Of a stretch of 64,000 nt of DNA, positions 15,239 to 20,263 are shown one piece after another (the stretch's first letter is position 1; each line of letters opens with the position of its first letter). The notes under the pieces are model-generated. The model had not been told where the DNA came from, did not search any database, and worked only from the letters and a program-made list of their open reading frames with translations. This DNA is from Sphaerobacter thermophilus DSM 20745 (GTDB lineage: Bacteria > Chloroflexota > Chloroflexia > Thermomicrobiales > Thermomicrobiaceae). Made by a program: the position numbers and the translations under genes. The DNA is taken from positions 930,001 to 994,000 of the forward strand of contig NC_013524.1 of the NCBI RefSeq assembly GCF_000024985.1, written 5' to 3'.

Positions 15239-16066
15239 GTGACCCAGCGTGTCGGGTTGATCGGGTATCCGGTCGAGCATAGTCTCTCCCCCGCGATGCA
15301 GCAGGCGGCCTTCGACGCCCTCGGCATCGATGCACGCTACGAGCTCTGGCCGACGCCCGAGGAGGAGGTCGCCGAGCGGATCGACGGGTTGCGCCGTCCC
15401 GACTACCTGGGTGCCAATGTCACCCTCCCCCACAAGGGAGTCGCCTTCGACCTGGTCGATGAGATGACCGAGCGTGCGCGCATGGCGCGGGCGGTGAACA
15501 CGATCGTCAACCGGGGTGGGCGGCTCTTCGGCGACAACACCGACATCCCCGGATTCCTGGCGCCGCTACACCAGCGCGGGATCGACCTGACGCAGACGCG
15601 CGCGGTCGTGCTCGGTGCGGGCGGCGCGGCCCGCGGCGTAGTGATCGCCCTGCTGTCGGCAGGATGCCGCCAGATCTCGGTCGGCAACCGCACGCCGGAT
15701 CGCGCCCAGGCGATGGTCGCCATGCTCCACCCGCCCGTCCCGATCTGGTCGGGGCCGCTCGATGCCCTGGCCGAGTGGCTGGAGGGCGCCACGCTGCTGG
15801 TCAACGCCACCGCGGTCGGGTGGCACGGCGACGCCTTGCCGATCCCGGCGGCCATGCTGGAGCTGCTACCGAAGGACGCCCTGGTCTACGACCTGACCTA
15901 CCGTGACACGCCGCTCCTCCTGGAGGCCCGGCGCCTCGGCCTGGACACCCAGGACGGATTGGAGATGCTGGTCCAGCAGGGGGTCGAGTCCTTCCGGCTC
16001 TGGACCGGCAAGGAGCCACCCGTGGACCTCATGCGCGCCGCCGCCCTCGCGGGGCGTGATGCGTGA
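15239..16066 (+). CDS. aroE: Shikimate dehydrogenase
   Basis: A 275-residue cytoplasmic NADPH enzyme reducing 3-dehydroshikimate in the aromatic amino-acid pathway. The substrate site shows SLSPAMQ, NVTLPHK with catalytic K66, and D102 in DNTDIPGF; the cofactor site shows GAGGAARG and GNRTPDRA. The start is GTG 15239 with GGAGAGGAG six bases upstream; a GTG at 15170 would add 23 unlikely residues. It follows mltG in the same direction. A dispersed repeat element sits directly behind the stop. Confidence 0.95.
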   Translation: MTQRVGLIGYPVEHSLSPAMQQAAFDALGIDARYELWPTPEEEVAERIDGLRRPDYLGANVTLPHKGVAFDLVDEMTERARMARAVNTIVNRGGRLFGDNTDIPGFLAPLHQRGIDLTQTRAVVLGAGGAARGVVIALLSAGCRQISVGNRTPDRAQAMVAMLHPPVPIWSGPLDALAEWLEGATLLVNATAVGWHGDALPIPAAMLELLPKDALVYDLTYRDTPLLLEARRLGLDTQDGLEMLVQQGVESFRLWTGKEPPVDLMRAAALAGRDA

Positions 16067-16200
16067 TGCGTCATACGTCATGCGTCATACGTCACCTGTG
16101 TTGCGTGGTGCTCCCCTCTCCCCTGGTGGGCTCCGTCCGAGAGGGGCCGGGGGTGAGGGGGACGGTTGACGCATGACGCATGACGCATCACGTACGACAT
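16064..16200. repeat. Composite intergenic inverted repeat, copy B
   Basis: Tandem ATGCGTCATACGTC units (16066-16097) face their reverse complement, ATGACGCATGACGC units (16166-16198), around a CCCCTCTCCC...GAGAGGGGCCGGGGGTGAGG core. The left arm overlaps the aroE stop codon by a few bases. Confidence 0.85.
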
Positions 16201-16290
16201 CTCACTCCCCAACCGTGACTTTGCTCCCAGGTTGAATATCGCATGCTCCTGGTAGGCTGCTAGGAGGAAGCAGTCGACGGAGCGATGGCG

Positions 16291-17019
16291 ATGGATCTGG
16301 GAAGCGTTGCGGCGATCGTGCTGGTAGGAGGCGGACTGGGCGCGCTGGCCGGGGCGCTGGTCCATGCGGTTGCCGTGCGGCTGCCGGCCGACCTCGACCC
16401 GCTGGGCGCTCCGGTCTGTACCGCGTGTGGCGCGTTGTTCGGTGCGGGCGGGCTGGTGCCGTTCCGGCGTCCGGCGTGTCCCCGCTGTGGAGTTCCCGCT
16501 CACTGGGCGAAGGTTGCGACCGAAGTGGCCGCGGCGGCGATCGTGATCGCGGCGCTCCTGCTCCGGGGCCTGACGTACTGGGGCGTGTCGGGCGCGATCT
16601 TCAGCCTGCTGCTCCTGGTGATCCTGCGGATCGACTGGCAGCATCACCTGATCTACACCGCGACCATTGTGCCGGGCCTGGCGGTGGCCCTGGTGGCCGC
16701 GGCACTCCACTCGCCCGGGATGCTCCTCTCGGCGGGGGTCGCAGCCGTCGGGGCAGGGCTCTTCTTCGCGCTCCTGTTCGGGCTGGCAATACTCCTATAC
16801 CGGCAGCGCGCGCTTGGCTTCGGCGACATCCTGCTTGCGGTGCTGATCGGCGCCATGACCGGCGTCGGGCGGGTCGCCCCGGCGCTGTTCCTCGGCATGG
16901 TGCTGGCGGCGGCCGGCGGGTTGCTCCTGATGGCGCTCGGCCGCCGGGGCCGGCGCGACTACATCCCCTACGGCGCCTACCTCTGCGCGGGCACGATCGT
17001 GGTGCTACTCGTCCGCTGA
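16291..17019 (+). CDS. Prepilin peptidase (A24 family)
   Basis: A 242-residue polytopic membrane protease that would cleave, and in some members methylate, type IV prepilin-like leaders. The N-terminal cytoplasmic domain carries two CxxC pairs (CTAC and CPRC) as in bacterial PilD. The catalytic aspartates appear in RIDWQHH and in GFGDILL. The start is ATG 16291 (GGAG eight bases upstream); ATG 16285 lies too close to the same site. No pilin, ATPase or assembly gene is near, so its substrates are encoded elsewhere. The last 15 bases overlap the end of the convergent receiver gene. Confidence 0.88.
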   Translation: MDLGSVAAIVLVGGGLGALAGALVHAVAVRLPADLDPLGAPVCTACGALFGAGGLVPFRRPACPRCGVPAHWAKVATEVAAAAIVIAALLLRGLTYWGVSGAIFSLLLLVILRIDWQHHLIYTATIVPGLAVALVAAALHSPGMLLSAGVAAVGAGLFFALLFGLAILLYRQRALGFGDILLAVLIGAMTGVGRVAPALFLGMVLAAAGGLLLMALGRRGRRDYIPYGAYLCAGTIVVLLVR

Positions 17020-17433
17020 CGCGCTCGTGCCTCTCACCCGGGCCGCGTGGGACGGCCGCCCGGCGTCTGCGCGTGCCACCGCGTGGCGGATGGTCGCCAG
17101 CAGGTCATCCAGATCGAACGGCTTCTCGATCACCGCATCGGCGTGCAGCCCGCCGGGGTTGCCAGGGTGTGGCGTCGTCGTAGTGAGGATCACCGGCAGG
17201 CTCCGGGTCTCCGGACGGCCTCGGAGTTCATCGAGCAGGTGCCATCCGCTCGTGGCCTCCTCCAGCCACAGGCTGACGATCGCGGCAGCGGGCCGCGTCT
17301 GGCGGATGATCTCGGCAGCCCCTGCCCGCCGGGGCCAGCCGACCACGTCGTAACCCTCCTCGCGGAGGATCTCCTCCAGGAGGCACAGCAGGTCCTGGTC
17401 TCGTTCGATGACAGCAATGACTGGCCTCTGCAC
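17005..17433 (-). CDS. Atypical response-regulator receiver protein
   Basis: A 142-residue single receiver domain. The acidic pocket is ERDQD at residues 10-14, the Thr switch is in ILTTTTP (about 84-87) and the Lys is K104 in EKPFD. The phosphoacceptor Asp is absent: the segment reads AIVSLWLEE, placing S54 where Asp should be. It therefore probably cannot be phosphorylated in the usual way and may act as a binding partner. The start is GTG 17433, preceded by GAGAGGG; an ATG pair at 17502 lacks a site. It overlaps the prepilin peptidase gene tail-to-tail by 15 bases. Confidence 0.8.
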   Translation of the reverse strand: MQRPVIAVIERDQDLLCLLEEILREEGYDVVGWPRRAGAAEIIRQTRPAAAIVSLWLEEATSGWHLLDELRGRPETRSLPVILTTTTPHPGNPGGLHADAVIEKPFDLDDLLATIRHAVARADAGRPSHAARVRGTSASADE

Positions 17434-17636
17434 GGCTGCGCCCTCTCGATCCGTGCTGTCGGCTACTCCTGCCCAGTACAGGTGTACCCGGGGGCGCATC
17501 AAGGCGGCGCGTGACCGGACATAGAGCGGGATAACAGGACTGCGACAGATGCGCGATACGCCGTGTGTGAGGGGATATCGTCCTCTTTGCGCAATCTTCG
17601 CAGAATCGAGAGGCGCTGAGCGGCCTTGAACATCCT

Positions 17637-18653
17637 TTACCGCGGCTTGTGGGTGTCCGGTGGGGCGTCGTGGCGCGGAGGGATCGGCGGGAACAGTATG
17701 AGGCAGGCGTTGCGCCCCTCGGCGGTGTCGAGCGAGCAGCCCCGGAAGGCCGCGGGCAGGTGTTGCGGCGCCTCGGGTTGGAGCGTCACGTGGGCGATCC
17801 CGAACCGCTCGCGGAGGAGGGCCGACAGGTCGAGCAGGATCGCGTGCCAGTCCTGTTGCTCATCGACCTCGACGTGGGCGCTTAAGGAGACAAATCCCGA
17901 GGTGACCGTCCAGATGTGGAGATCGTGGACGTTCATGACGCCGTCGACGCCCATCATCGCCGCCCGCACCTCCTCGGCGTCGATGTGCCGCGGCGTGGTC
18001 TCGAGCAGCACGTCGAGCGAGTCGCGCAGCAGCCTAGCCGCGCTCCAGAGGATGAGCAGTCCGATGCCGGCTGAGAGGATCGGGTCGGCTAGGTACCAGC
18101 CGGTCGCCAGCATGATCAGCGCCGCGACGATGGCCCCGACCGAGCCGAGCAGGTCGCCGACCACATGGAGGAAGGCGCCACGGATGTTCAGGTTGTGCTC
18201 ATGCCCGCCACCTCGGCTGAGCACCCAGGCCGACGCGGCGTTGGCCACCAGCCCGGCGACCGCGACCACGAGCATCGGTCCGCTATCGACCGTGGGCGGC
18301 GCGGTGAAGCGGCGCGCCGCCTCCCAGAAGATGAGGAGCGCGATCACGATCAACCCCGCGCCATTGACGACGGCTGCGAGGACCTCCGTCCGGTAGAGCC
18401 CGAAGGAGTGCTGCGGCGTCGCCGGGCGCCCCGCGAGCCAGGCAGCGAAGAGGGCGAGCGCCAGTGCAGCCACGTCGGTCGCCATGTGCCCCGCGTCCGC
18501 CAGGAGCGCCAGGGAGTTGGTGACCAGACCGCCCACAACCTCGACCACGAGGAAGATGGCGCTGATCGCCAACGCGATCACCAGCGGGCGGCGGTGCACC
18601 CGCTCCCGCGGCCGATCGATGGCGGCGTGCTCGTCGATCGCGTGGTCGTGCAT
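17637..18653 (-). CDS. Cation diffusion facilitator (CzcD/ZitB-type metal exporter)
   Basis: A 338-residue membrane protein that exchanges divalent metal, most likely zinc, for protons. A His/Asp-rich N-terminus precedes six membrane helices; helix 2 carries H56 and D60 in DAGHMATD, and helix 5 carries HVVGD. The cytoplasmic C-terminal domain has HDLHIWTVTSG and HVEVDEQ, as in dimerising CDF tails. The protein ends in a Pro/His-rich tail. The start ATG 18653 follows AAGGGCCGAG. Transcribed alone; no metal regulator is adjacent. Confidence 0.92.
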   Translation of the reverse strand: MHDHAIDEHAAIDRPRERVHRRPLVIALAISAIFLVVEVVGGLVTNSLALLADAGHMATDVAALALALFAAWLAGRPATPQHSFGLYRTEVLAAVVNGAGLIVIALLIFWEAARRFTAPPTVDSGPMLVVAVAGLVANAASAWVLSRGGGHEHNLNIRGAFLHVVGDLLGSVGAIVAALIMLATGWYLADPILSAGIGLLILWSAARLLRDSLDVLLETTPRHIDAEEVRAAMMGVDGVMNVHDLHIWTVTSGFVSLSAHVEVDEQQDWHAILLDLSALLRERFGIAHVTLQPEAPQHLPAAFRGCSLDTAEGRNACLILFPPIPPRHDAPPDTHKPR

Positions 18654-18805
18654 CGCTCGGCCCTTCGGCTGGCAACTCCTGACCGGCGGGCGCTGCCGGC
18701 ATTATTCAGGGATGCTGCACTCACTGTGCCCCGGGGACGGAGGGATACCTCAGGGGCGCGTCCATTATGTCATGCCAGCCGCGGCCCATCAGGAAGACAG
18801 GAACG

Positions 18806-18835
18806 GGCCGCCCGGCAAGCGGGTGCCGGGCGGCC
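18806..18835 (-). terminator. GC-rich hairpin after the repeat-containing exported protein
   Basis: GGCCGCCCGGCA (18806-18817) and TGCCGGGCGGCC (18824-18835) form a perfect 12-base stem with a six-base loop, 30 bases past the stop of the minus-strand gene. The following strand is only moderately T-rich. Confidence 0.65.
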
Positions 18836-18865
18836 ACTGTGTGGAGGATCGGGATGGACGCGGGT

Positions 18866-20263
18866 CTAGCCGTCGAAGGTGTCGTCGTGGACGGACCAGG
18901 TGCCGCCGGGGTTCCAGTAGAGGTCGCCCGCAAACACCCAGATCTGGTCGAAATCCTCGATCCAGACCATCGTGCCGTAGTTGAAGCGCTGGTAGGCGCC
19001 GTGGCTTCCGCGCTCAGGCTCGACAGCCCACCCAAGGCGGTCGCGGACGCCCGGCACGTCACGCCAGACCTTGCCGAAGCCGCGCACGGGCTGATAGAGC
19101 CCCGCAGGTGGGGTCAGACGCGGGTCGGAGTCCGCCTGCCCTTCGTCCCAGGTGTCCGCGTAGCGGGCGAAGGTGCCGTCGTCGTAGAGGACGAGGATGG
19201 AGCGTTCCGGGTTGTAGACGTCATCGACGTCGACCCAGATCATCGTGCCGCGCTCGAAGCGTTGGTAAGCCGTGCGGATGCCCCGCTCTCCGGTCGTGTC
19301 ATCCGGGCAGCCGAGCGTGTCGCGAACCTCCCGGTTGCTGCTCCAGAGCGTGCCGAAGCCGCGCACGGGTACCGTCGGGCAGGACACCTGCCAGCTCCCG
19401 TAGCGCCAGTGCTGGTAGTGCAGCCCGACGTTGCCCATCTCCACCTTGAACGGGTCGGGGTTCGACGGCGTGTAGGTCAGGCAGCGGCGCTCGAAGCACT
19501 GGACGAGGACGTCGGTCTCCTGGCCGTTGAGCAGTGTCTTGGTCCAGTACGGCTCGGTGAGCGGGTAACCGGTGACGAAGACCCAGTCGGCCGGCGCCAC
19601 CAGCGGGGAGACGTGCCGGGTGAGGAAGTCGACGAAGACCTCGGGCAGGTTGTGGCCAACCGTCTCACCCTGCTCCCCGGTGTAGGTCACGTACGCGCCG
19701 TACCGCAGCCCGGCCGCGCGGCGGGACAGGTCGAACCCGGTGGTGCCGTCCCGGTCGACGGTGGCCGTGATGATCTCCCCGGTCCGATCGGGCGCGCTGC
19801 CCATCAGCCGGCCGAGGACCTGGTAGGTGGGTGTGTTCCAACTGAAGGGGTCACCGGCGACGGGAATGCTGGCCGGCAAGACCGTGGTGTAGATGTCAGG
19901 ATCCTGGCCGACCTGGATCCGGCCGGTCATCATCTCGTAGACGAGGCGCCCGTTGGTGATGTACCAGGGGTCAGACGGATCGCCCGACGGATCGTTGATC
20001 TCCATCCGGCTCTTGTCGAAGTAGGCGACGAGGCGCCGGTTCTCCTTGAGCGGCGCGTAGGTGTACGGCTCGGTCGTGACCCGGTTGGCCTGTGGCCCCC
20101 AGAGCCAGGACCGGTCCGTCTCGCCGGCTGCCACTGGCCCGTCGGTGCGCTCCCAGAGCGCGACCATGGCCGGGCCCAGCTCCGCCTCGGCCGCCCCTAC
20201 ACCCGCGACGGGTACCACCAGCGAGGTGACCAGGACCACCAGCGCCAGCAGCGCTCTTCGCAT
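18866..20263 (-). CDS. Exported protein with PVRGFG/FERGTM repeats
   Basis: A 465-residue secreted protein: a signal peptide (to about residue 24, GVGA|AEAE), a large N-terminal domain I do not recognise, then a CFERRCLTYTPSNPDPF segment with MGNVGLHYQHW, and two C-terminal repeats of about 75 residues. The repeats start with PVRGFGTLW (about 297) and PVRGFGKVW (about 391), and each continues with LG..., a QRF[E/N]xGTMxW strand and a short acidic segment. They recall LGFP-type cell-wall repeats but the match is loose. The same module is in the lipoprotein at 23196-24089. The start ATG 20263 has AAGGGGA upstream. A surface or wall-binding role is inferred. Confidence 0.8.
   Translation of the reverse strand: MRRALLALVVLVTSLVVPVAGVGAAEAELGPAMVALWERTDGPVAAGETDRSWLWGPQANRVTTEPYTYAPLKENRRLVAYFDKSRMEINDPSGDPSDPWYITNGRLVYEMMTGRIQVGQDPDIYTTVLPASIPVAGDPFSWNTPTYQVLGRLMGSAPDRTGEIITATVDRDGTTGFDLSRRAAGLRYGAYVTYTGEQGETVGHNLPEVFVDFLTRHVSPLVAPADWVFVTGYPLTEPYWTKTLLNGQETDVLVQCFERRCLTYTPSNPDPFKVEMGNVGLHYQHWRYGSWQVSCPTVPVRGFGTLWSSNREVRDTLGCPDDTTGERGIRTAYQRFERGTMIWVDVDDVYNPERSILVLYDDGTFARYADTWDEGQADSDPRLTPPAGLYQPVRGFGKVWRDVPGVRDRLGWAVEPERGSHGAYQRFNYGTMVWIEDFDQIWVFAGDLYWNPGGTWSVHDDTFDG

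Follow-up and report, generated by a model that had tools for sequence, protein, structure and literature searches.

Receivers of the Response_reg family (PF00072) whose phosphoacceptor aspartate has been replaced are described as ALRs or pseudo-receivers (PsRs). They have been estimated at about 4-6% of receivers, as against an earlier estimate of about 13%, and one direct analysis found about 6% of bacterial receivers to be of this type (PMC12632262). Serine is the third commonest replacement of the aspartate in ALRs, accounting for 15% of the substitutions, and the acidic triad-2 position is given as acidic in only 29% (Maule 2015, PMC4395418). The second acidic position (DD2), a direct metal ligand of receivers, is put at about 80% non-acidic in PsRs (Bourret 2025, PMC12632262). 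How pseudo-receivers work in bacteria is poorly understood; the mechanisms described include protein binding (FrzS), dimerisation, ligand binding and modification of serine or threonine (PMC12632262). The FrzS receiver of Myxococcus xanthus (2gkg, 2i6f) lacks the aspartate and has an intact fold, with Ala at the site (PMC4395418) and a switch residue, Tyr102 (PMC1974792). RitR has Glu9-Lys10 as its acidic pair (PMC4395418).

The window analysed here, a stretch of 64,000 bases (930001-994000) on the second contig of the two-contig genome of Sphaerobacter thermophilus (3,993,764 bases; G000), encodes a protein that may be compared with these. Its features are collected in Table 1. The predicted protein matched Response_reg at residues 6-116 with 38.2 bits (cut-off 30.2; E 1.8e-9) and covered the profile in full (positions 1-111 of 111), while no second Pfam family was found in it at E values up to 10. 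With a receiver domain alone and no output domain in its 142 amino acids, it is by Pfam a single-domain response regulator. An AlphaFold2 model built from a 5-row alignment (pLDDT 86.4, pTM 0.79) showed the (beta-alpha)5 receiver fold, as a prediction rather than a solved structure. In a structural comparison with VIA-align the 50 receiver-containing entries listed had Z scores of 18.8-21.2; the best among those listed was 9dvt_R (Z 21.2, rmsd 1.5 over 121 residues), and FrzS (2i6f_A) was also present (Z 19.4, rmsd 1.9 over 119 residues). The reading frame has no internal stop, a coding-like base composition (GC1/2/3 of 0.76/0.51/0.83) and a conserved C-terminal block, and the gene is therefore not plainly dead.

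Table 1. Features of the pseudo-receiver locus (positions in the window)
Feature	Position	Strand	Basis
Prepilin peptidase (A24), convergent neighbour	16285..17019	+	PF01478, 40.4 bits
Single-domain receiver, aspartate-less pseudo-receiver	17005..17433	-	142 aa, GTG start; Pfam, predicted fold
Lys104 of KPFDLDDLL, pocket Lys, conserved	17122..17124	-	Alignments
Thr85, pocket Ser/Thr position, conserved	17179..17181	-	Alignments
Ser54, codon AGC, phosphoacceptor column; GAC (Asp) in the orthologue of G113	17272..17274	-	Alignments
Glu10-Arg11, acidic (DD) pair, second member now Arg	17401..17406	-	Alignments
Upstream intergenic stretch, cation-efflux gene to receiver, 203 nt	17434..17636	-	Sequence

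An in-frame ATG at position 17499 would lengthen the receiver by 22 residues (stretch 17434-17499). In G112, another genome of the genus, what little of this stretch can be read is kept with few amino-acid changes, and for this reason the real start could lie upstream of the annotated one.

The preliminary description of this locus had recognised a stand-alone pseudo-receiver with serine at position 54, the phosphoacceptor site, and all other receiver residues in place. The serine was borne out: Ser54 occupies the phosphoacceptor column of the multiple alignment, and a pairwise alignment with the syntenic orthologue, free of gaps around the site, places it there too. Thr85 and Lys104 are indeed retained, but the motif ERDQD, which had been read as the acidic pair, provides E10-R11 to the pocket and leaves D12 outside it, so that the second, metal-binding acidic position is occupied by Arg. 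Among the five pocket residues that define a true receiver (DD1, DD2, D, T and K), DD2 is thus Arg11 and D is Ser54. Together with the single Pfam family, these two residues support the description as a stand-alone pseudo-receiver. The loop after the site, said to have an altered ProxxDG motif, is altered in the query (LWLEEATSGW), but in part this is a trait of its clade, since the rows of the clade share a loop one residue longer than that of ordinary receivers. The T+1 position is Thr86 (Ala in 23 of 28 clade relatives), and the Tyr/Phe switch is absent because the K-3 position is Val101. A sequencing error behind Ser54 is unlikely: the Asp and Ser codons differ at two bases (GAC to AGC), so that one miscalled base cannot explain it, and a second pocket residue is altered as well.

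With its PF00072 match and Ser54 opposite the Asp of an orthologue, the protein resembles the described ALRs and pseudo-receivers in receiver fold, replaced aspartate and retained lysine, and it shares with RitR a Glu at DD1 followed by a basic residue at DD2. It resembles FrzS in being Asp-less with an intact fold, but has Ser54 where FrzS has Ala, and Val101 in place of the switch Tyr. It differs from the ALR class in being without an output domain and in that its serine is not conserved even within the genus. The protein fits the described ALR class and adds no new kind.

A single syntenic orthologue was found. It belongs to G113, whose genome is of the same genus, and its neighbours there are again the prepilin peptidase (80% identical) and aroE (85%). 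The end of the contig cuts its N-terminus, and the acidic pair lies outside the readable part. This copy reads AIVDLWLPRPDDGW, with Asp at the phosphoacceptor site, and in its stretch AIVDLWLPRPDDGWTLLDELR this Asp is followed by a Pro at D+4. A wider comparison started from 83 rows, from which three copies of the query locus itself (L001, L050, L051) were removed; a further 14 (12 receivers of the query's own genome, L019 and L020) stood outside the count. The 66 other receivers that remained came from the query's own genome, its family and its class, together with one relative from a database. At the phosphoacceptor 64 of them had Asp, two had Asn and none had Ser. The preliminary description had proposed aligning orthologues to see whether the serine is conserved, naming Asp in most close orthologues as the opposite outcome. 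It is this opposite outcome that the alignment gave: the lone syntenic orthologue found has Asp, and a conserved Ser-type family is not supported.

The locus cannot be read in G112 (aroE 95% identical), where it falls between contigs: C209 starts just beyond the end of aroE, and C271 stops 173 bases past the cation-efflux match, before the start of the receiver. A protein search of G112 for the receiver gave no match better than 1.3e-9. A scan of genome contigs with the single query protein returned three distant relatives.

In a tree of 67 rows, which drew a warning of few columns for the number of rows, the query grouped with the G113 protein as its sister (support 100/98). Within a clade of 29 rows (95/89), this pair was sister to the 27-row clade that holds the members with Asn at DD1. 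Besides the query, the 29-row clade has 26 members with Asp and two with Asn at the phosphoacceptor. The two, L032 and L036, come from other families, and because they carry Asn there, loss of the Asp seems to have occurred more than once in the clade. Within the query's own genome there are 39 Response_reg matches, of which 38 were aligned, one match below the cut-off being left out; the phosphoacceptor is Asp in 35 of the 38, Glu in two closely similar ones and Ser in the query. The two with Glu, L013 (G000:C2:785112-785441) and L133 (G000:C1:1578642-1578971), have Pro at DD2, and where the pocket Lys would be they carry another Glu. At the DNA level they share 98.9% identity along 558 bases that take in the latter portion of the domain and continue past it, with one copy on each replicon. 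To judge from their sequences, they are a duplicated pseudo-receiver.

Many of the query's nearest relatives are receivers spread through the phylum in which the phosphoacceptor Asp is intact and DD1 is Asn. In the 28-member clade DD1 was Asn in 17 of the 27 readable members, and all five canonical pocket residues were found in 6 of the 28 as against 35 of the 38 other rows; one of the 28, L021, is cut and so could not be among the 6. The C-terminal tail extended 20 residues or fewer past the aligned domain in 19 of 20 clade members checked. When 400 genomes of the phylum were searched with a 21-row alignment, 216 had a hit with an E value of 1e-20 or below, a number that will include ordinary receivers. 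Ten candidates were scored per genome, and the 30 loci taken further (L145-L174) are the best-scoring ones rather than a random sample; L145 and L147 coincide with loci already represented in the query alignment. These best 30 had DD1 Asn in 30/30, DD2 Asp in 29/30, the phosphoacceptor Asp in 30/30 and both Ser/Thr and Lys in 30/30; at the switch position none had Tyr or Phe, and one had Trp. By the strict five-residue definition the Asn-DD1 receivers would themselves count as pseudo-receivers, of a kind that keeps the Asp. The query is like them in its related position in the tree, the one-residue longer beta3-alpha3 loop, mostly followed by GW, the KPF motif and the short C-terminal tail. 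They keep Asp at the phosphoacceptor and Asn at DD1, whereas the query has Glu10, Arg11 and Ser54. A literature search gave no title on an Asn-DD1 receiver family among the matches listed. A broader reading, which we put forward tentatively and consider doubtful, is that there is a phylum-wide family of single-domain Asn-DD1 receivers, keeping Asp, Thr/Ser and Lys and having no Tyr/Phe switch, from which some relatives (the query with Ser, two others with Asn) later lost the Asp and would act independently of phosphorylation.

The receiver has changed faster than the genes around it. Between G000 and G113, over 100 aligned codons, its dN was 0.476 and its dS 0.578; the peptidase had a dN of 0.121 and a dS of 0.585, aroE 0.099 and 0.645, and the cation-efflux gene 0.168 and 0.537. 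The amino-acid change of the receiver is thus 2.4 to 4.8 times that of its three neighbours, and because the synonymous divergence is similar, the excess lies in amino-acid changes. In the 84-codon core of the receiver, where dN was 0.400, omega came to 0.76; its bootstrap interval (0.43-1.38) is compatible with moderate constraint and with none. Omega of the adjacent peptidase was 0.21 (0.14-0.29), its highest 84-codon window reaching 0.30. Residues 104-116 of the receiver had an omega of 0.28, over 13 codons only, and KPFDLDDLLA is the same in both copies. It might be thought that the faster change belongs to the lineage with Ser, but the summed relative-rate counts of the two lineages were 318 and 315 (with related outgroups, and not as a formal test), and an acceleration specific to the Ser lineage was dropped. 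Because these counts are nearly equal, the fast change or weak constraint extends beyond the lineage in which the Asp was lost. The receiver is less constrained than its neighbours and may be heading for loss.

The preliminary description had also pointed to the overlap of the receiver with a lone prepilin peptidase. Both parts of this hold: the genes overlap tail to tail by 15 nt (17005-17019), and no other protein of the genome matches PF01478 at an E value of 0.001 or lower. A tie between the two proteins is another matter. As the genes are convergent, they do not form an operon, and as the overlap is absent in G113, where a 31-nt gap takes its place, no partnership is implied. A receiver was present in the examined flanks of only 2 of the family's 17 peptidase loci, both of this genus, with the flanks of two of the 17 (L051, L066) well shortened by contig ends. 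No recognised two-component gene directly adjoins the receiver.

Upstream, the cation-efflux gene was considered as a conserved neighbour and rejected, since in G113 it sits inside another contig on which no receiver was detected. A protein search of that contig found no receiver at E 1e-5, and in a blastn comparison of window positions 16000-19000 with 6.5 kb around the G113 cation-efflux gene the receiver region was unmatched, a search that a diverged copy could escape. Consensus scans for a sigma-70-like promoter and for a terminator at the receiver locus gave nothing. A perfect inverted repeat, GTACA-CC-TGTAC, lies at 17476-17487, 43-54 bases upstream of the receiver start, and presumably resembles operators of the CopY/BlaI type; the repeat recurs at the corresponding position in G112, and the query genome has no second such site. 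G000 has a single occurrence of the sequence GTACANNTGTAC, G112 has three, one of them at the matching position, and G113 has none. Because the same sequence read backwards, as a control, is likewise found once in G000, GTACANNTGTAC is no evidence of a regulon, and with a single genomic site and an equally frequent control we rejected it as a conserved operator.

The explanation that we favour, with a probability of roughly 0.6, is that this is an aspartate-less pseudo-receiver which lost its Asp in one lineage under weak constraint and which, if it works at all, works by binding that does not depend on phosphorylation. In the lineage of one species the phosphoacceptor Asp would have given way to Ser and the Pro of the next loop would have been lost; the second acidic residue would have become Arg11 at a time that cannot be dated. 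By established receiver chemistry phosphotransfer is very unlikely, because both the Asp and the second acidic residue are missing, and a histidine kinase would be unable to phosphorylate a protein without Asp54 and the metal ligand. If functional, it would be a small binding protein acting independently of phosphorylation through parts common to both copies, namely helix 3 (GW.LLDELR), beta-4 (LPVILTTT) and KPFDLDDLLA, and its activity would be governed by the amount of protein made.

The main rival, which we regard as unlikely, is that the gene is simply decaying: its partner or kinase has gone and a functionless protein is drifting. The core dN/dS of 0.76 with an interval spanning 1 would agree with this, as would the lack of a recognised two-component gene directly alongside and the combination of Ser54, Arg11 and the missing loop Pro, which looks like erosion of the pocket. 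Against it, the frame is intact, the receiver fold is well predicted, the gene is kept at the same place in both genomes, and KPFDLDDLLA is identical in the two copies within a segment (104-116) of omega 0.28. That segment and the intact frame speak against total decay. Loss of the Asp might instead mark a receiver re-tooled for a new input, either a Ser/Thr kinase acting on Ser54 or on T84-T87, T61 or S62, or a ligand held in the pocket. Serine and threonine residues do cluster at the pocket, and other pseudo-receivers are described with Ser/Thr phosphorylation or ligand binding (PMC12632262), but the orthologue has no Ser54 and none of the 66 other rows has Ser there, and we consider this improbable.

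It is more improbable still that Ser54 is benign and that the receiver is phosphorylated at a different acidic residue. Thr85 and Lys104 are retained, and D12, E58 and E59 are near the pocket in sequence; yet the second acidic residue is Arg11, and the gap-free alignment sets Ser squarely opposite the Asp of the orthologue. Least credible of all is what the preliminary description implied, namely that a pseudo-receiver with a conserved Ser acts together with the prepilin peptidase in pilus biogenesis. The order aroE-peptidase-receiver is common to the query genome and G113, and a pseudo-receiver, FrzS, works in type IV pilus motility (PMC12632262). On the other side stand the Asp of the orthologue, the convergent genes with a gap in place of the overlap in G113, and the rarity of a receiver at the peptidase loci of the family. 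We therefore retain the aspartate-less pseudo-receiver under weak constraint.

Taken alone, the protein is an ordinary Asp-less receiver, weakly constrained. Its value lies in the pair: a copy with Asp and a copy with Ser at the same locus in the same genus offer a clean comparison of the effect of losing the Asp. If the broader reading of a phylum-wide Asn-DD1 family were true, the two copies would be a natural before-and-after pair for the switch to phosphorylation-independent work.
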